Source: a virus
Virus record (IMG/VR): IMGVR_UViG_3300030390_001169
Coordinates: 1-22,603 of that record
Length of the DNA: 22,603 bases
Reading direction: 5' to 3' (one strand)
The notes beneath the pieces were generated by a model, which was given only the letters and a program-made list of their open reading frames with translations, had not been told where the DNA came from and ran no database searches. Every line of letters starts with the position of its first letter. Position 1 is the stretch's first letter. Positions 7,990 to 15,893 of this stretch are shown here, piece by piece. Made by a program: the position numbers and the translations under genes.

Positions 7990-9048
7990 TTATCCTTTTA
8001 GTTTAAACATTGTTGCAAGTCCACCTTTTTTAAATTGTGCATAACGAGGAGTACCACTTTTTCCACCATAACCCATAACACCTCCATCTTTAGAAGAACC
8101 TGAAAAAGTTGAGCCTTTACCTGGATCTGAAGCATATTCTTGAGCACTTGATGCTCCATCATATCTTCCACCGGTCATTGCATTTTGTCTATCTCTTGAT
8201 GCTTTAGATTGAGACGCGTATGCTGCATCCAATGCTGATTGTCTTGCTTGAGCTTCACTAGCTATTTTGTCTTCATAAGCTTTTTTCTCTGCTATAGCTC
8301 TATCAAGTTTTGCTTGTTGAAATTTTGAAAGAGTTTTATAACCCATCATTTTTTCTATGTATTTCTCTAATTGTAATCCATAATCATTTGTTCCAAAACC
8401 TGATACAACATTTTGACCAGACAATACTGAACCCGGTCCATACTTTGCTAAACCAGAATTAGGATCGTTTCCAATCATCATTTGACCATCTGTAAATTTT
8501 AAATTATCAGACGTTCCGGTAATTCTTGTTCCTGTTTGTCCTCCTAAAAAATCCATTTGTGGTTGAAGGTCAGGATTATAATTCATAGCATTAGGGTTTA
8601 ATGCATTTCTTTTATTAGCTAAAGCCATCATTGGAGTAATTGCAAAGTTTTGAAATTTATTTGCTCCTGAAACAATTCCACTTCCTATTCTACTGTCTGA
8701 AAATTTATCCATCATTGAGCCTGTAAAGTCTCCTACTTTTGAAAATGTTTTTCCTAGAAAACTATTTGGATCTAAAGAAGTTGTTTGGCGAGTTAAGGGA
8801 TCAAGAGTAGTTATTCCTCCTTCACCTCCTCCACCTTGTTGATATTGATTTATATTTTGATTTATAATATTCGGAGTTGTGGGTGTAGATGTAGTCGGAG
8901 TTGATGTTGTAGTAGATGTTGTTGCAGACGAAGGTGTAGAACCTTGATAACCAAACAATGATAAATAATCATTCATATTTGGAAATTGATTTTGTAATAC
9001 TGAACTGCCTTTATAGGTATTAATATAATTTGAAAAATCTTGTGCCAT
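7990..9048 (-). CDS. Probable virion protein with Ser/Thr-rich linker, unknown function
   Basis: 352 residues. A short N-terminal domain (FSNYINTYKGSSVLQNQFPN, MNDYLSLFGYQGS) is followed by a Ser/Thr/Pro linker (about 36-60) and GGGGEGG. The middle is Asn/Gly/Ser-rich (TPMMALANKRNALNPNAMNY). A helical segment near 230-285 precedes a Gly-rich end with KKGGLATMFKLKG, again the GG motif. It lies between TerL and portal, coupled to TerL by TAATG. Composition suggests a structural or internal virion protein. No domain recognised. Confidence 0.75.
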   Translation of the reverse strand: MAQDFSNYINTYKGSSVLQNQFPNMNDYLSLFGYQGSTPSSATTSTTTSTPTTSTPTTPNIINQNINQYQQGGGGEGGITTLDPLTRQTTSLDPNSFLGKTFSKVGDFTGSMMDKFSDSRIGSGIVSGANKFQNFAITPMMALANKRNALNPNAMNYNPDLQPQMDFLGGQTGTRITGTSDNLKFTDGQMMIGNDPNSGLAKYGPGSVLSGQNVVSGFGTNDYGLQLEKYIEKMMGYKTLSKFQQAKLDRAIAEKKAYEDKIASEAQARQSALDAAYASQSKASRDRQNAMTGGRYDGASSAQEYASDPGKGSTFSGSSKDGGVMGYGGKSGTPRYAQFKKGGLATMFKLKG

Positions 9049-10511
9049 TAATAATACGTTCTCTCTGTTTTCGGTAATGCATTTTCTTTTTCATCTTCGG
9101 GGTGTCCAATAAAACCTCCCTGTCTAAAGCGCATTATCGCTTGTGTTGTACTGTCCACCAAATCATCGTGATCTCCATAAGGAAATGATGCACACTCTTC
9201 GATTACCTCTTCGGCAAACTTGTCTTCAGTTGCCCAAATAATTCCACTTTCAAATAATGGAGCAACCGCATTAACTCTAGCGTGTTTATCACTACCTTTG
9301 CTAGGAGTATAGTTTATAACAGGTATACCCATTTTTCGCAACTCAAAAGTTAAAGGCATTCCAGAAGCTTTAGCCTCCACGATCACCGTTTCAGGGTTCC
9401 AGTAGCGATATTGTTCCATAGCAACTTTTTTAAGTTCAGGAAATTCTAAACGTTCTTTGACTGCATCTAGAAGTATTAAGTTAGGTGGTGAATCTTGATC
9501 AGGATAAAATACACCCCACGTTGTAATTGCAGAATAATCCGCAGTTTCTTTTTTAAGAAACGCCGTATCATAACTTTGAATAATATGTTGTAGAGGTGGA
9601 ATATATCCTTTGTCCCACACGTTCCACCATTCTCGTTTAATTAATGATCCTTCTTCAGCCGTTGGGTTCTGCATCCACTGTGCATTCCATTTACCAACAG
9701 ACAGAGAAGCTTTCACCGATTCGAGTTCCTCTTTCTTCCAATACTCTGGCCATACCGGTTTCTCACTTGGTAAGATTGCTGGAAACTCAATCACTTCCCA
9801 CTGATCTGATTTTAATTCTTTTTGAGACTTAAGTAACATACCAGTCAAGTCTTTCATATTCCATCTCGTCATAACCAAGACGATCGCTCCACCAGGTTGA
9901 AGTCTTTGTCTTGGTCCTGATGTATACCATTCATACGCACGCTCTAGTGCAGTTACGTTCAACGCATCTTGCTCCGAGTGTGGGTCATCAATGATAAGTA
10001 AATCCGCTCCACGACCCGTTATGGCAGATCCAACACCAGCTGCGTAGTATTCACCACCTTGTTCTGTTTCCCATTTGCCCGCGGCTTGCGAATCTTCTCT
10101 TAGTCTTGTTTTGAAAACGGATTGATATTCGGGGCTATCGATTAAATTTTTAGCTTTACGTCCAAAGCGGATCGCTAATTCTGTGGTGTGGGTCGTTTGA
10201 ATAATCTTTAGATCAGGTTTACGTCCTACCATCCAAGAGGGTAAGAGGTAAGACGCAAACTCAGATTTAGTATGCCTAGGGGGCATATTAATAATAAGTC
10301 TTTTAATTTTTTTATTTGCGATGTCATTAAATTTTTGTGAAATTTTTTTGTGATGCTTACCTTCTATAAACTCTGGCCAAACGTGTTTGACAAAACTTAG
10401 AAAGTCTTTTTGAACTGAGTTCTGTTTTTTCTTCTCATCAAATTTAATGGCGTATTTTAAGAATTCTTTCTTAGCGTCAGGGGGAAGTTTGTTTATTAGT
10501 TCTTCATTCAT
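9048..10511 (-). CDS. terL: Terminase large subunit (packaging ATPase and nuclease)
   Basis: 487 residues. The Walker A-like motif is MPPRHTKSEF (76-85), Walker B is LLIIDDPH (171-178), and the coupling motif is VLVMTRW (211-217). The RNase H-like nuclease domain carries acidic residues in SYDTAF (Asp 314), VIVEAKASG (Glu 379) and GDHDDLVDS (around 447-454). This is a complete two-domain TerL. It docks on the portal, pumps DNA with ATP and cuts the concatemer. It overlaps the upstream nuclease gene by four bases (ATGA) and the downstream gene by TAATG. The small subunit is not adjacent; it is on the other strand at 15157-15669. Confidence 0.97.
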   Translation of the reverse strand: MNEELINKLPPDAKKEFLKYAIKFDEKKKQNSVQKDFLSFVKHVWPEFIEGKHHKKISQKFNDIANKKIKRLIINMPPRHTKSEFASYLLPSWMVGRKPDLKIIQTTHTTELAIRFGRKAKNLIDSPEYQSVFKTRLREDSQAAGKWETEQGGEYYAAGVGSAITGRGADLLIIDDPHSEQDALNVTALERAYEWYTSGPRQRLQPGGAIVLVMTRWNMKDLTGMLLKSQKELKSDQWEVIEFPAILPSEKPVWPEYWKKEELESVKASLSVGKWNAQWMQNPTAEEGSLIKREWWNVWDKGYIPPLQHIIQSYDTAFLKKETADYSAITTWGVFYPDQDSPPNLILLDAVKERLEFPELKKVAMEQYRYWNPETVIVEAKASGMPLTFELRKMGIPVINYTPSKGSDKHARVNAVAPLFESGIIWATEDKFAEEVIEECASFPYGDHDDLVDSTTQAIMRFRQGGFIGHPEDEKENALPKTERTYY

Positions 10512-11651: not shown

Positions 11652-11877
11652 TTTTAGTATTATCCAAATATTTTTTTTCATCTATATCTTTAAGAAGTTT
11701 TTCATAATTAATATAAGGGTAAAAATTTTGAATACCTCTTATAGTCTTATTCAAATCTTCTTCTAACATACAAAAAGCCGTTGCATTTTTTTTAGGCTTG
11801 TAGTCGGCGTATGTATTCCTAAACTTTACTAATTCATCAACTAAGTTGTATAAATTGGGTAATGGTTCTTTTTTCAT
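11644..11877 (-). CDS. Small helical protein, unknown function
   Basis: 77 residues from the ATG at 11877 (MKKEPLPNLYNLVDELVKFR). The frame stays open to 11913, but GGAGG lies five bases before 11877, so I prefer that start. Mixed charge, probably helical, with GIQNFYPYINYEKLLKDIDE near the C-terminus. First gene of a unit whose promoter-like motif is about 55 bases upstream. Not recognised. Confidence 0.65.
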   Translation of the reverse strand: MKKEPLPNLYNLVDELVKFRNTYADYKPKKNATAFCMLEEDLNKTIRGIQNFYPYINYEKLLKDIDEKKYLDNTKNV

Positions 11878-12124: not shown

Positions 12125-12210
12125 CAAGCGAGAATACAAGCGAATAACTCACAAGCGATCGACAAGCGAGGATCGTTAATTAATTTTTTTTATAATTAAC
12201 CAACAAGCGA
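12125..12210. repeat. Iteron-like array: five direct CAAGCGA repeats
   Basis: CAAGCGA begins at 12125, 12137, 12152, 12163 and 12204, all in the same orientation. The last copy lies within the 3' end of the nuclease gene at 12180. ATAACTCACAAGCGA (12144-12158) matches 14 of 15 bases at 15075-15089 upstream of terS. A T-rich tract (12095-12115) lies beside the array. Consistent with sites for a DNA-binding protein such as a replication initiator or TerS. Confidence 0.75.
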
Positions 12211-12563
12211 TTGACCTCGTCCCAATCATCTTGAACCAAGCAAGGCGTTTCACGATGATCTTCTAAAAGTCCGTAAATACTTTTACTCCCATAAAGTTTT
12301 ATGGAGCGAGGAACGGCAGTGCCGAGCAAGATGAAATTACGTTTAGGTCGTAGTAAATGGAATAGTTTTTGATGTGGTGAGAAGATAACTTTCTTCTGTT
12401 TTTCGTTCTTAATTAATTTTAACTCAACCATAAAAAAACCACAGTGATCGTGGTATCCAAGACAATCACACACTCCAAAACTTGACCAACTTTCCAATCT
12501 TGTCCACCTAATTTGAGGGGTATTTTTCTTCAAAAGTTTCCAAAGGTCACTCTCTTTTTTCAT
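12180..12563 (-). CDS. PD-(D/E)XK nuclease, VRR-NUC/resolvase-like
   Basis: 127 residues. ESDLWKLLKKNTPQIRW and RLESWSSFGVCDCLGY (Asp 33) lead into GFFMVELKLIK (Glu 47, Lys 49), then FSPHQKLFHLL (His 64, Gln 65). This E-D-ExK-Q order matches small phage nucleases of the VRR-NUC/Holliday-resolvase-like fold. It probably trims or resolves branched phage DNA. It seems to be a single-gene unit: a terminator for the upstream operon lies at 12629-12654, and repeats follow its 3' end. No clear Shine-Dalgarno sequence precedes the ATG. A 6-bp inverted repeat, ACTCTT/AAGAGT (12571-12589), just upstream could be an operator. Confidence 0.78.
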   Translation of the reverse strand: MKKESDLWKLLKKNTPQIRWTRLESWSSFGVCDCLGYHDHCGFFMVELKLIKNEKQKKVIFSPHQKLFHLLRPKRNFILLGTAVPRSIKLYGSKSIYGLLEDHRETPCLVQDDWDEVNRLLVNYKKN

Positions 12564-12628
12564 AGTACAAACTCTTATTTTAAAAGAGTAAAAATTGCAA
12601 GATAAGAGGGGTTGTGAGTGGGGGAAAA

Positions 12629-12654
12629 CCCTCTCAAAAGTTAATTTGAGAGGG
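12629..12654 (-). terminator. Rho-independent terminator of the 14758-12665 operon
   Basis: A perfect 10-bp stem, CCCTCTCAAA / TTTGAGAGGG, with a six-base loop, followed on the minus strand by TTTTCC. It begins 10 bases past the stop codon at 12665. The U-tract is short, but the stem and position are convincing. Confidence 0.7.
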
Positions 12655-12664
12655 AAAGGGAGTT

Positions 12665-12823
12665 CTATTTAATTTCTTGTTCTTCTGATTTCTGCATCAT
12701 TAATCGTTGCATTTCTGCAAGTTCTCCAAAAGTAGTCTCTAGTGATATGTCAAAATCTTCACCAAATACCTTTTTGAAAGATTGTTTAAAGTGTTCTTCA
12801 GTATTAAAGTTTTTTATCTTCAT
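12665..12823 (-). CDS. Small acidic protein, unknown function
   Basis: 52 residues: MKIKNFNTEEHFKQSFKKVF, then GEDFDISLETTFGELAEMQR and a Gln/Glu-rich tail. GGAG stands seven bases before the ATG. Overlaps the upstream gene by 20 bases. Last gene before the terminator at 12629-12654. Not recognised. Confidence 0.65.
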   Translation of the reverse strand: MKIKNFNTEEHFKQSFKKVFGEDFDISLETTFGELAEMQRLMMQKSEEQEIK

Positions 12824-12944
12824 TTTCTTTCTCCTTTATTTCTTCGTTTAATTGTTCCATTTTTTTAATCATTTCAATTTGAAAATCTAAATAAACACCT
12901 TTTGTTATTAAGAGTTCCATCATTGATTTTTCTCTTTTTTCCAT
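12804..12944 (-). CDS. Small charged helical protein, unknown function
   Basis: 46 residues, MEKREKSMMELLITKGVYLD followed by a Lys/Glu-rich helix. A strong GGAGG is five bases upstream of the ATG. It lies two bases after the upstream stop and overlaps the downstream gene by 20 bases. Not recognised. The ribosome site and packing are the evidence that it is real. Confidence 0.6.
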   Translation of the reverse strand: MEKREKSMMELLITKGVYLDFQIEMIKKMEQLNEEIKEKENEDKKL

Positions 12945-12946
12945 TT

Positions 12947-13252
12947 TTACCTCCTTTCTACCATTGTATTTTTTTCTCCATCTTCTTCTATCTCTTCTAC
13001 AATCTCTCCTACAATTTCGGTTTTATTCATTTTGGAGTAGTCTTTGATGTATGAACAAGCAACCTCATTTGTACTTTCAGTTTTTATATCTATTTTGGAT
13101 TGATCGAGATATTTTTCGTGTGCTTGATCTTCGTCTTCTGCAATAACTTGATGTTTGATTACATAAGTTATCTCCTCTTCTATCTCATAGATTTTTTTAC
13201 CTATATCTTTATCAGACACAAATAAATCGTCAGTAGGTTTAAACTCTTCCAT
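12947..13252 (-). CDS. Acidic small protein, unknown function
   Basis: 101 residues, about a third Glu/Asp. It contains EIEEEITYVIKHQVIAEDED followed by QAHEKYLDQSKID; the strand-helix order around YVIKHQVIAEDEDQAHEKYL suggests a small alpha/beta fold also seen in other phage early proteins. The tail is almost all Glu, Val and Ile. Coupled to the upstream gene by TAATG. Function unknown; strong negative charge would suit a DNA mimic, which is speculation. Confidence 0.7.
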   Translation of the reverse strand: MEEFKPTDDLFVSDKDIGKKIYEIEEEITYVIKHQVIAEDEDQAHEKYLDQSKIDIKTESTNEVACSYIKDYSKMNKTEIVGEIVEEIEEDGEKNTMVERR

Positions 13253-13503
13253 TATTCAACCTCATTTCTAAATGTAGGGATACAAGATAACTCTTTTATA
13301 TTTGTTAAAATTGCCCCACTTTCGTTTCCCTCATCATCACTACTAGGAGTTAAAATAGTTCCATTATCCAAATAGATTTCACAAGGTTGTTGTGACCAAC
13401 CCATCAATCTTTCACTTTCTTTTGCACTCAACCATTTTACTTTTACTATTTTTCTTCCTACTAAATGCTTACTTACTAACTTTTCCCATTTACTATCTTC
13501 CAT
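13252..13503 (-). CDS. Conserved small protein with the LDNGTxxxPSxDDEGN motif
   Basis: 83 residues. An N-terminal GRKIVKVKWLSAKESERLMG is followed by IYLDNGTILTPSSDDEGNES and GAILTN. I recall this motif from small proteins of many phages and bacteria, where a strand-rich domain ends in DDEGNxxGA; function is not known to me. AGAGGAG precedes the ATG. It overlaps the upstream gene by 11 bases and is coupled to the downstream one by TAATG. Confidence 0.78.
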   Translation of the reverse strand: MEDSKWEKLVSKHLVGRKIVKVKWLSAKESERLMGWSQQPCEIYLDNGTILTPSSDDEGNESGAILTNIKELSCIPTFRNEVE

Positions 13504-13708
13504 CTTGTTTCTCCTCTCCGTGAATATATCTATCTAAATCTTCTGCTATATTCCAATTTTCAATAAATAACTCCAACCATTTTCGTTGCTCATTATTGAT
13601 GTCGTCTCTTAAAATAACCTCATCTGCACTCGTGGGATCTTTGATATTGTTTTTTTCTCCCCATTTAACATAAATATCAACTAATTTATCTATTGTGTCA
13701 TTACTCAT
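13493..13708 (-). CDS. Small acidic protein, unknown function
   Basis: 71 residues from the ATG at 13708 (MSNDTIDKLVDIYVKWGEKN), chosen because GGAG lies six bases upstream; the frame is open further to 13759 without a ribosome site. Contains DDINNEQRKWLELFIENWN. Helical and acidic. Not recognised. Confidence 0.65.
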   Translation of the reverse strand: MSNDTIDKLVDIYVKWGEKNNIKDPTSADEVILRDDINNEQRKWLELFIENWNIAEDLDRYIHGEEKQDGR

Positions 13709-13733
13709 TATTTCTCCTTTTTTATTTTTCTTT

Positions 13734-13964
13734 CTATAAACAAGATATACAATATTCATTATTTTGTCTAGATATCTCGTCTGATTTCATTATCTCTTTA
13801 CAAGATTTACAAAACCCTTTTGGTGTAGGTGTTATCTTGTTTATTATTGATGATAAGGTTCTAACTGTATCTTCAGAAGAATTTTCTTTATCTTCAATAG
13901 CTAAATCTAAATCATCACTTAACCAATCTAACAAAAAAGCTTGTTCTTTTTTAGTTAGTTTCAT
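13734..13964 (-). CDS. Small protein with C-terminal zinc ribbon
   Basis: 76 residues. An acidic helical N-terminus (KEQAFLLDWLSDDLDLAIED) is followed by FCKSCKEIMKS and YCISCL at the very end: two CxxC pairs about 19 residues apart, sufficient for one Zn2+. A helical domain plus zinc knuckle suggests protein or nucleic-acid binding. GGAG precedes the ATG; overlaps the upstream gene by 14 bases. The specific role is unknown. Confidence 0.7.
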   Translation of the reverse strand: MKLTKKEQAFLLDWLSDDLDLAIEDKENSSEDTVRTLSSIINKITPTPKGFCKSCKEIMKSDEISRQNNEYCISCL

Positions 13965-14217
13965 CGTCTCCTTTCTCAGATAGATAATGAGTATAAGTCA
14001 TCATCATTCCAATTTTTTTTCCGTCTTCAAATATTTGCTCAAACATACTGTGAAGACCATTTTTCTTCATAGATCTTTCTTGATCTATCCAACAAGTCCA
14101 AGTCTCATCAACATATGCATTTATTCTATCTTTTATTTCTTTTAGTTGCATATAGTTTTTAGGATTATTTTTTTTAAAGTTTTCCCATTCTTCTTTTCTC
14201 CAACCTTGTGGTGTCAT
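13951..14217 (-). CDS. Small Trp-rich protein, unknown function
   Basis: 88 residues, beginning MTPQGWRKEEWENFKKNNPK, with ETWTCWIDQERSMKKNG and a C-terminal helix containing GKKIGMMMTYTHYLSEKG. Mostly helical. Coupled to the upstream gene by TAATG and preceded by AAAGGAG. Not recognised. Confidence 0.68.
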   Translation of the reverse strand: MTPQGWRKEEWENFKKNNPKNYMQLKEIKDRINAYVDETWTCWIDQERSMKKNGLHSMFEQIFEDGKKIGMMMTYTHYLSEKGDDETN

Positions 14218-14549
14218 TATATTTTCTCCTTTCTATTTTTAGGTAAAACTAGATCATTATTTAAACTAGAATAATTACCAAAAAAATATTTTCCATTATT
14301 ATTTATACTATCTTTGATACAAGGGTATTTATCGACCATATATTTACTACAAGACCAACACAAAGATAATTTTCTTAATTTTCTATTTGGGTCTAACTGT
14401 CTCTTAATATAAGTCATTAAGTGTTTTTTGCTTTTAAGTGCTTTTTTCCACATAAACTTTAAATCAAAAATATCTTGTTGATCGTTATATTCATCGATAT
14501 AAAAAGTTGCTATTACATTTACACTTACATTTTTTTCATATTCTCTCAT
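14217..14549 (-). CDS. Small basic protein with a CWSC motif, unknown function
   Basis: 110 residues. An N-terminal strand segment (SVNVIATFYIDEYNDQQD) is followed by basic helices (KKALKSKKHLMTYIKRQLDP) and LSLCWSCSKYMVDKYPCIKD, where CxxC plus a later Cys might bind metal; a full four-ligand site is not obvious. Ends KNRKEKI. TAATG-coupled to the previous gene. The DNA around its stop and the next ribosome site nearly duplicates that at its own start. Confidence 0.68.
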   Translation of the reverse strand: MREYEKNVSVNVIATFYIDEYNDQQDIFDLKFMWKKALKSKKHLMTYIKRQLDPNRKLRKLSLCWSCSKYMVDKYPCIKDSINNNGKYFFGNYSSLNNDLVLPKNRKEKI

Positions 14550-14758
14550 TATATTTTCTCCTTTCTATATAATTTATTTGCTTTTATTTTTTGTTGGGTA
14601 TCAAGTTGTAATTTTTTTCCCAATTTTAATAATTGTTCTGCATATTCATATGGAAAATATTTATACTTTCCATAGTCGTCTTTATCTAAAGATTTAAGTT
14701 CTATCTTTATTAAATCTCTTAATATGCATTTTTCTTTTGTATTTAACCATTGTCTCAT
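14549..14758 (-). CDS. Small basic helical protein, unknown function
   Basis: 69 residues from the ATG at 14758 (MRQWLNTKEKCILRDLIKIE), preceded by AAGGAG at seven bases. The frame is open to 14809, but the promoter-like motif at 14813-14824 makes a longer start unlikely. Ends LYRKEKI, similar to its downstream neighbour because both end in an AGAAAGGAGAAAATATAATG stop/ribosome-site block. First gene of a nine-gene operon. Not recognised. Confidence 0.68.
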   Translation of the reverse strand: MRQWLNTKEKCILRDLIKIELKSLDKDDYGKYKYFPYEYAEQLLKLGKKLQLDTQQKIKANKLYRKEKI

Positions 14759-14812
14759 TTTATTCTCCTTTTTATTTATTTTTATATACCTATTGTAATT
14801 TAAAAACAAGGG

Positions 14813-14842: not shown

Positions 14843-15016
14843 ATGACAAAAATCAATAAAAAATCGTGGATTTGGGATAGAACAAGAATAATCTTAAAAA
14901 ACCCAAATAATGAAGATGTTATCTTAACAAGTGAAGATTTGAATGATCAAACACTAAATTATATTTTTGAAGACATAGAAAAATATGTTCAAGAAGAGGG
15001 TGGAGAAATAGAATAA
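14843..15016 (+). CDS. Small acidic protein upstream of terS, unknown function
   Basis: 57 residues, MTKINKKSWIWDRTRIILKN followed by an acidic half (TSEDLNDQTLNYIFEDIEKY, EEGGEIE). AAGGAAA is placed before the ATG. It is on the plus strand with terS, 140 bases ahead of it, and divergent from the 14758 operon. Not recognised. The divided charge (basic head, acidic tail) resembles some small regulators, but that is weak evidence. Confidence 0.6.
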   Translation: MTKINKKSWIWDRTRIILKNPNNEDVILTSEDLNDQTLNYIFEDIEKYVQEEGGEIE

Positions 15017-15046
15017 AAATAAAACACAACTCCCGGTAGAATTTTT

Positions 15047-15071
15047 ATAAAATAAAAATAAAAATAAAAAT
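15047..15071. repeat. AT-only simple repeat beside the iterons
   Basis: About four tandem units of ATAAAA form a 25-base tract with no G or C, directly before the CAGGCGA iterons. AT-only DNA next to iterons is the usual layout of an origin-melting region; here it is only suggestive. Confidence 0.6.
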
Positions 15072-15082
15072 ATTATAACTCA

Positions 15083-15120
15083 CAGGCGAACAGGCGATTA
15101 CAGGCGATTACAGGCGATTA
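15083..15120. repeat. Iteron-like array: CAGGCGAA plus three CAGGCGATTA
   Basis: CAGGCGA begins at 15083, 15091, 15101 and 15111. The last three are perfect 10-base tandem units, so each repeat sits on the same face of the helix. The array ends exactly where the terS -35 box begins. The preceding ATAACTCACAGGCGA (15075-15089) matches the array at 12144-12158 at 14 of 15 bases. Confidence 0.85.
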
Positions 15121-15149
15121 TTGACTTGTACGGAAAGTTACACTATAAA
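15121..15149 (+). promoter_or_regulatory. Near-consensus sigma-70 promoter for terS
   Basis: TTGACT (15121-15126), a 17-base spacer, TATAAA (15144-15149). Five of six bases match consensus in each box, at ideal spacing. The expected +1, about seven or eight bases after the -10, falls on or next to A15157, the first base of the terS ATG. The -35 directly abuts the iterons. Confidence 0.75.
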
Positions 15150-15674: not shown

Positions 15675-15893
15675 CTATATAGTTTTCTTGGAAACTTTTT
15701 TACTAGTGCCCACTTGTTTATAACTGGTTTGTATTCCATTTGAGTTTGGTCCTTTTTTTGGTGGAAGTTGATCCCATTTTACATTAGGCATATTCTTTGT
15801 CAATGTAGGATTAAAAATTCTGTTGTATTCTTTTTTATAAGTTTCAGTAGGTATTCTAGATCTACCATCGTAGCTAAATTTTTTAGTTTTCAT
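15675..15893 (-). CDS. Small basic conserved protein, unknown function
   Basis: 72 residues, MKTKKFSYDGRSRIPTETYK then KEYNRIFNPTLTKNMPNVKW and a Lys/Ser-rich tail. GGAG precedes the ATG. It overlaps its upstream partner by 11 bases and converges with terS, the stops being five bases apart. I recall YDGRSRIPT-type small proteins from marine phages; no function known. Confidence 0.72.
   Translation of the reverse strand: MKTKKFSYDGRSRIPTETYKKEYNRIFNPTLTKNMPNVKWDQLPPKKGPNSNGIQTSYKQVGTSKKVSKKTI

Follow-up and report, generated by a model that had tools for sequence, protein, structure and literature searches.

Sequence comparison revealed helically phased DNA upstream of the small terminase gene (terS), recurring with unrelated repeat units in three phage groups, together with a promoter core specific to terS. 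The best explanation, for which we judge the case evenly balanced, is that such a phased tract, of which the array studied here is one local version, serves as a pac-like, SPP1-type site: a ring of TerS would wrap it, and it would double as a control element for terS.

The window (the whole stretch of 22,603 nucleotides analyzed) is part of an IMG/VR virus record of 30,709 bases, and its features are listed in Table 1. Ten N follow directly on its last base (L083:605-614; record positions 22604-22613), which places the end of the window at a scaffold gap or a masked region. The original prediction had described three perfect 10-base repeats plus a partial copy ending exactly where the -35 box of terS begins, A/T-only DNA beyond them, and a 14-of-15-base match to a second array 3 kb away with five CAAGCGA copies, and all of this was borne out. 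CARGCGA starts at 15083, 15091, 15101 and 15111 on the plus strand (spacings of 8, 10 and 10), TTGACT begins at 15121, and ATAACTCACARGCGA fits both 12144 and 15075 without mismatch, the two sites themselves differing at 1 of 15 bases. The five CAAGCGA copies start at 12125, 12137, 12152, 12163 and 12204 (the fifth within an ORF). Over both strands of the window CARGCGA has 11 matches, whereas 100 dinucleotide shuffles gave 2.3 on average and 6 at most; the array (15082-15120) has the best score (64) among 28 TRF rows; and a de novo scan of the window for 7-base words occurring four or more times in 130 bp yielded these two clusters and no others. Helical phasing, which had been proposed as well, held for the terS-side array only, the copies of the 12.1-kb cluster being spaced by 12, 15, 11 and 41 bp. 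Within the window alone the period is modest (lag-10 autocorrelation over the 130 bp before the -35 box: z = 2.9, P = 0.042, lags 5 to 25; periodicity of the four unit starts: P = 0.0545).

Table 1. Positions of the features discussed, numbered from the first base of the window
Feature	Position	Strand	Remarks
terL	9048..10511	-	phrog_38; Terminase_6N/6C
Second cluster, CAAGCGA x4	12125..12169	+	Not helically phased (12, 15, 11)
127-aa gene	12180..12563	-	phrog_2165, labelled DNA helicase; adjoins terS in one sister group
Fifth CAAGCGA	12204..12210	+	Within 3' part of ORF 12180-12563
57-aa ORF before array	14843..15016	+	No family match in PHROGs or Pfam
A/T-only tract	15040..15078		Far side of array; AAAATA x4 at 15049-15072
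terS-side array	15083..15120	+	Partial unit CAGGCGAA at 15083-15090, then CAGGCGATTA x3 at 15091-15120
terS promoter	15121..15149	+	TTGACT 15121-15126, 17-bp spacer, TATAAA 15144-15149; sigma-70-like
Core motif TACGN6TACR	15129..15142	+	Within promoter spacer
terS, 170 aa	15157..15669	+	phrog_51, E 5.6e-7; Terminase_2 weak

Profile matches support the assignment of the gene at the array as terS. Terminase_2 was matched at E ≤ 1 by 17 of 17 TerS members (best 4.3e-6; window TerS 0.028, under the curated cut-off). SF6-type chains 4zc3, 3zqp and 2cmp were matched at E values of 0.012 to 0.021, outranked by an unrelated ribosomal protein, and a fold search with the TerS model (mean pLDDT 61) gave nothing significant (best E 2.4). 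The model places helices at residues 9-20, 27-34 and 40-47, with pLDDT of 72 to 94 (ten-residue means) up to residue 60 and low values thereafter; together with the weak similarity to Terminase_2 and SF6 TerS, this prediction supports an HTH-like N terminus. Among named phages the nearest TerS is that of Pelagibacter phage HTVC027P (59%), and the nearest TerL proteins are those of 023Pt_psg01 (78%), HTVC027P (75%), HTVC023P (62%) and DSL-LC04 (61%). About 80 complete genomes of the HTVC023P type have been described (PMC9599517). Neither core nor array was found upstream of terS in HTVC027P. Downstream of terS in the window, the minus-strand gene at 15675-15893 looks similar, on inspection by eye, to gp30 of HTVC027P, which is named as the ribosome rescue factor ArfA in a paper that presents RNA-seq of HTVC027P and whose main text does not contain the word terminase (PMC12753301). 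The contig of one relative has a match to Hammerhead ribozyme type II (L052:1082-1143; 37.9 bits, gathering 37).

Conservation of the array was assessed in loci chosen by TerS protein (the best 80 of 262, 79 of them with a usable start). At least three CARGCGA within 220 nt upstream of terS were found in 21 of the 79 loci (two loci have less than 100 nt upstream), namely in the nearest relatives plus L071 and L077. The original prediction had named absence of the arrays from close relatives that conserve terS as its refutation, and this was seen for the word, array-negative relatives having TerS proteins 74 to 85% identical (best segment). In 14 TerS representatives with and without arrays, R39 and R41-R48, located around the predicted third helix, do not vary, yet the word is missing from most of their upstreams; this speaks against a reading of CAGGCGA by TerS and agrees with shape recognition. 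Sequence-specific TerS iterons are thus rejected beyond the close clade, where the word is lost and TerS kept; what stands of the proposed packaging and autoregulation site is the site itself, as the best explanation, with a helical period that persists while the words change. In the array-positive records checked for the word (six of 19 searched, 11 to 34 kb, some ending before the second cluster), CARGCGA is nearly limited to the two clusters, the exceptions being copies within terS and at most two elsewhere. Phased CARGCGA was also rejected as a general mark of terS, only 4 of 20 IMG/VR stretches with it preceding terS of this clade.

Units of 10 to 11 bp lie between the upstream gene and terS, and their sequence varies by array lineage: CARGCGATTA, CAGCTCAATGA and CAGGGYGACC in one array set, CAAGCGAACC and CTACATCCCT in L090, and CCCTCTACAT, CCCCGTGTCT and AACATGCGAT in L150 and L062. 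Units picked by eye gave periods of 10.6 to 10.9 in seven loci (11 to 13 unit starts), 10.7 in L090 and 10.1 in L150, with a best period of 9.4 in the window and L094 (four units each); 6 of 11 loci departed from random positions at P < 0.05. A test that needs no chosen unit, autocorrelation over the 130 bp preceding the -35 box, was run against 500 dinucleotide shuffles. The best lag was 10, 11 or 22 in all 15 array upstreams, and P was below 0.05 in 13 (exceptions: L094, 0.086; L126, 0.346); 1 of 12 array-negative upstreams passed (lag 20), and in five of them lag 20 was best. Scanned over whole loci (15 loci, including three pairs from shared contigs), the terS upstream was the strongest 10/11-bp window in 10, the second strongest in 3 and lower in 2. 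Static curvature, predicted with wedge parameters, was high in some array loci only, and was dropped as a common property for want of a common signal in the estimate.

The period also recurs in further groups. The HTVC023P isolate has five CTAGGAAA boxes within 11680-11764, with terS at 11866. Relatives were chosen by protein alone (HTVC023P group: best 80 of 240 TerS relatives; 023Pt_psg01 group: 32 loci), and exclusion of loci cut near the start (eight and two, respectively) and of loci shorter than 1,500 bases, with merging of near-identical upstreams, left 32 and 7 distinct upstreams. GC/AT power in the 9.6- to 11.4-bp band over -120..0 exceeded the 90th percentile of its own locus in 22 of 32 HTVC023P-group upstreams, compared with 10% of 296 other gene starts, and in 7 of 7 of the 023Pt group, compared with 9% of 35. 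A rerun with new random draws and intergenic controls gave 21/32 and 7/7, against 11% of 540 and 9% of 148. In the HTVC023P group the control bands of 7.0 to 8.4 bp and 12.5 to 15 bp each exceeded that level in one of 32 upstreams; in the 023Pt group the former did so in one of seven, but the latter in three of seven (above 0.9). The array group, which is defined by its arrays, gave 5 of 6, against 6% of 87 controls. HTVC023P-group boxes are mostly spaced by 11, 20-21 or 43-44 bp, and most lie 100 to 200 bp upstream of the ATG. The 023Pt group is the sole group tested without prior view of its repeats (the single named genome excepted), and, rows within a group being homologous, the independent cases number about three, one per group; separate counting of array sub-lineages with unrelated units raises this to five to six.

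Slippage could have produced 10-bp repeats in an untranslated gap that are read by nothing. Near relatives do differ by whole units (four in the window, three in L015; L150 versus L062), and unrelated phages also have 10-bp CARGCGA tandems, 16 of the 20 IMG/VR stretches lying outside the clade. Nonetheless, we consider such a neutral minisatellite improbable: the period stays at 10 to 11 bp while the units diverge, the HTVC023P-group boxes are not in tandem and yet stand whole turns apart, and only 9 to 11% of the other intergenic windows in these loci come up to the 90th percentile.

Several relatives lack a helical period, so that not every TerS of this kind can depend on one. Over -120..0, sister groups with close TerS proteins were without phasing (1 of 14 upstreams in a group with a hairpin at this place, 0 of 7 in the group where terS adjoins the phrog_2165 gene). 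Named genomes had percentiles of 1.00 (HTVC023P and 023Pt_psg01), 0.74 (HTVC027P) and 0.02 (DSL-LC04); in HTVC027P and DSL-LC04, which count among those without phasing, the preceding gene overlaps terS. Over -60..+60 the period was raised in all three groups hand-picked from the 79 loci and the window (18, 16 and 11 members), but that interval includes TerS codons, and -120..0 was preferred because codons of TerS helices could give a similar period. The hairpin set (the 16, including two hairpin-less loci, L032 and L033) was raised over -60..0, which contains the core (median 0.89 versus 0.62; P = 0.004), and not over -120..0 (0.71 versus 0.54; P = 0.096); the P values for these sets ignore relatedness. 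In the upstreams compared, phasing is not universal, but it persists, or re-arises, with unrelated letters.

The array abuts a promoter that a promoter scan had omitted, the scan requiring T at the last -10 position. A scan of IMG/VR with TTGACTTGTACGNNNANTTACRNTATA returned 55 stretches, all 55 with terS directly downstream: the TerS start lies 8 to 11 nt beyond the motif in the 54 whose ORF can be read, and the position agrees in the remaining one, which is truncated by its contig end; in 33 of the 55 there was no CARGCGA in the upstream sequence present (up to 220 nt; only 8 nt in L146). Of 48 distinct terS upstreams, 46 have the core TACGN6TACR no more than 45 nt from the ATG, and the core has only 49 matches in 662 kb (those loci, both strands counted). 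The promoter core is thus nearly exclusive to terS. From its upstream sequence terS looks leaderless: the ATG follows 8 nt after the -10 hexamer in the window, and a Shine-Dalgarno-like tetramer at -16..-4 was found in 0 of 48 distinct upstreams. Starts of neighboring minus-strand genes, unlike that of terS, are preceded by GGAGAAA-like runs.

In many array-negative members the core is flanked by an inverted repeat, TTGACTT...AAGTCAA. The right arm of this repeat, GTCAA, occurs in 0 of 14 distinct upstreams that have a CARGCGA array and in 27 of 31 that do not; of the four upstreams that lack both arm and CARGCGA array, L061 and L062 have a different 10-bp array. At the position taken by the array in array lineages, 33 loci have a hairpin, GGGG..TCAGTATC..CGTAAGCC..CCCC, once per locus, on the terS strand and 93 to 123 nt upstream of terS (for example L020:1521-1578, L042:5882-5941, L052:5871-5931 and L058:3136-3199), and the pattern was absent from the rest of the loci then searched. 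Of its 14 predicted pairs, 7 are changed on both sides with pairing kept (13 aligned sequences); the loci searched gave no Rfam match to it at gathering. The TerS tree is compatible with a single origin of the array state (one change, support 77/74), and the array clade may thus stem from one origin.

Control of transcription alone, by an activator, a repressor or a host nucleoid protein on phased sites with no role in packaging, would account for an array that ends right at the -35 box and for a promoter core almost restricted to terS. The mutual exclusion of arrays and GTCAA arm, which looks as if one mode of control had been swapped for another, points the same way, but it may be one event, because the TerS tree allows a single array origin. 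A regulator that reads sequence would moreover need to track complete changes of unit between lineages, and the HTVC023P-group boxes, mostly 100 to 200 bp from the ATG, are far off for a classical activator. We regard this explanation as unlikely.

Unlike the terS-side array, the second cluster is not helically phased, and it has the wider distribution of the two. Close relatives keep it with shifted spacing; a sister group without the terS-side array has low-complexity DNA rich in GAGC and CAAGC at the equivalent place, and HTVC027P has a CAAGCCA cluster within gp32. That a single protein binds both arrays, as had been suggested, is conjectural: the 12.1-kb cluster is unphased, and in relatives the corresponding sequences are found within a small gene or next to one. 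The cluster was also considered as coding, in a short QA-rich plus-strand frame, which is doubtful, the ATG being ATA in L008, L010 and L027. Between the clusters (12564-14809) lie small minus-strand genes, a stretch of variable length among relatives (about 2.6 to 4.4 kb from cluster to cluster) that is missing from the sister group with terS directly beside the phrog_2165 gene. L026:68-120 has CAAGCGA at 13-bp spacing directly 5' of a small plus-strand gene, away from terS.

Both clusters have direct repeats beside A/T-rich DNA, and SPP1 origins consist of repeats and an unwinding element (PMC6316719), which would suit replication-origin iterons read at both places by a phage initiator. However, neither bases 1-49,000 of HTVC027P nor the HTVC023P record includes an annotated initiator; many genes there are hypothetical, and those with a replication name encode primase, helicases and DNA polymerase. 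The A/T tract is not retained in all array lineages. An initiator as the reader, the second candidate of the original prediction, found no support and is disfavored, leaving an origin highly unlikely. As in iteron origins, the repeats here are short, direct and flanked by A/T-rich DNA; unlike in them, the word varies by lineage.

Under the pac-like reading, a TerS ring would wrap some 40 to 170 bp of the tract, contacting the DNA about once per turn, weakly and mostly independently of sequence. Such wrapping would mark phage DNA for packaging, which may start at this site, and, the tract adjoining the terS promoter, TerS could limit its own transcription. In SPP1, pac comprises direct repeats and extends over the promoters, the ribosome-binding site and the beginning of terS (PMC4737164; PMC6316719). 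For TerS of SF6 and SPP1, Greive et al. (PMC4737164) proposed that DNA is chosen by its conformation. In their model the HTHs bind weakly and without specificity, spaced by about one turn of the helix, and about 100 bp is wrapped; sequence change is tolerated, and terminase transcription receives feedback. Our case resembles theirs in having short direct repeats at the terS promoter (abutting the -35 box in the window) and a TerS with a predicted HTH-like N-terminal region. It differs in that the repeats form a near-continuous 10- to 11-bp tract, or boxes whole turns apart, with a unit that varies between lineages; in that terS lacks a ribosome-binding site and terL lies about 4.6 kb off on the opposite strand (in the window); and in the weak homology of the SPP1 and SF6 proteins to the window TerS. 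In cosB of phage lambda, several sites for gpNu1, its TerS, lie upstream of terS, are sequence-specific and need IHF; the window phage likewise has several candidate TerS sites upstream of terS, whereas no cos ends are known for it.

Among the literature matches listed (title and start of abstract), we recognized no description of these tracts or of the terS-specific core. How TerS chooses viral DNA has been described as unsettled, binding in vitro being weak and mostly independent of sequence (PMC9611059; PMC4737164). Phage groups that differ in the letters of the tract and share its helical period form a natural series, which provides comparative evidence for conformational recognition: the packaging protein may recognize its genome by wrapping DNA and not by reading letters. 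The stronger version, in which HTVC023P-type pelagiphages would mark their genomes for packaging by DNA shape alone, with selection on the period (over at most about 170 bp upstream of terS) and complete turnover of the letters between lineages, such that period and not sequence would define the packaging site, is one that we put forward tentatively and with some doubt. From the comparison come candidate packaging sites for viruses that are widespread in the ocean, and the model is testable in cultured HTVC023P.
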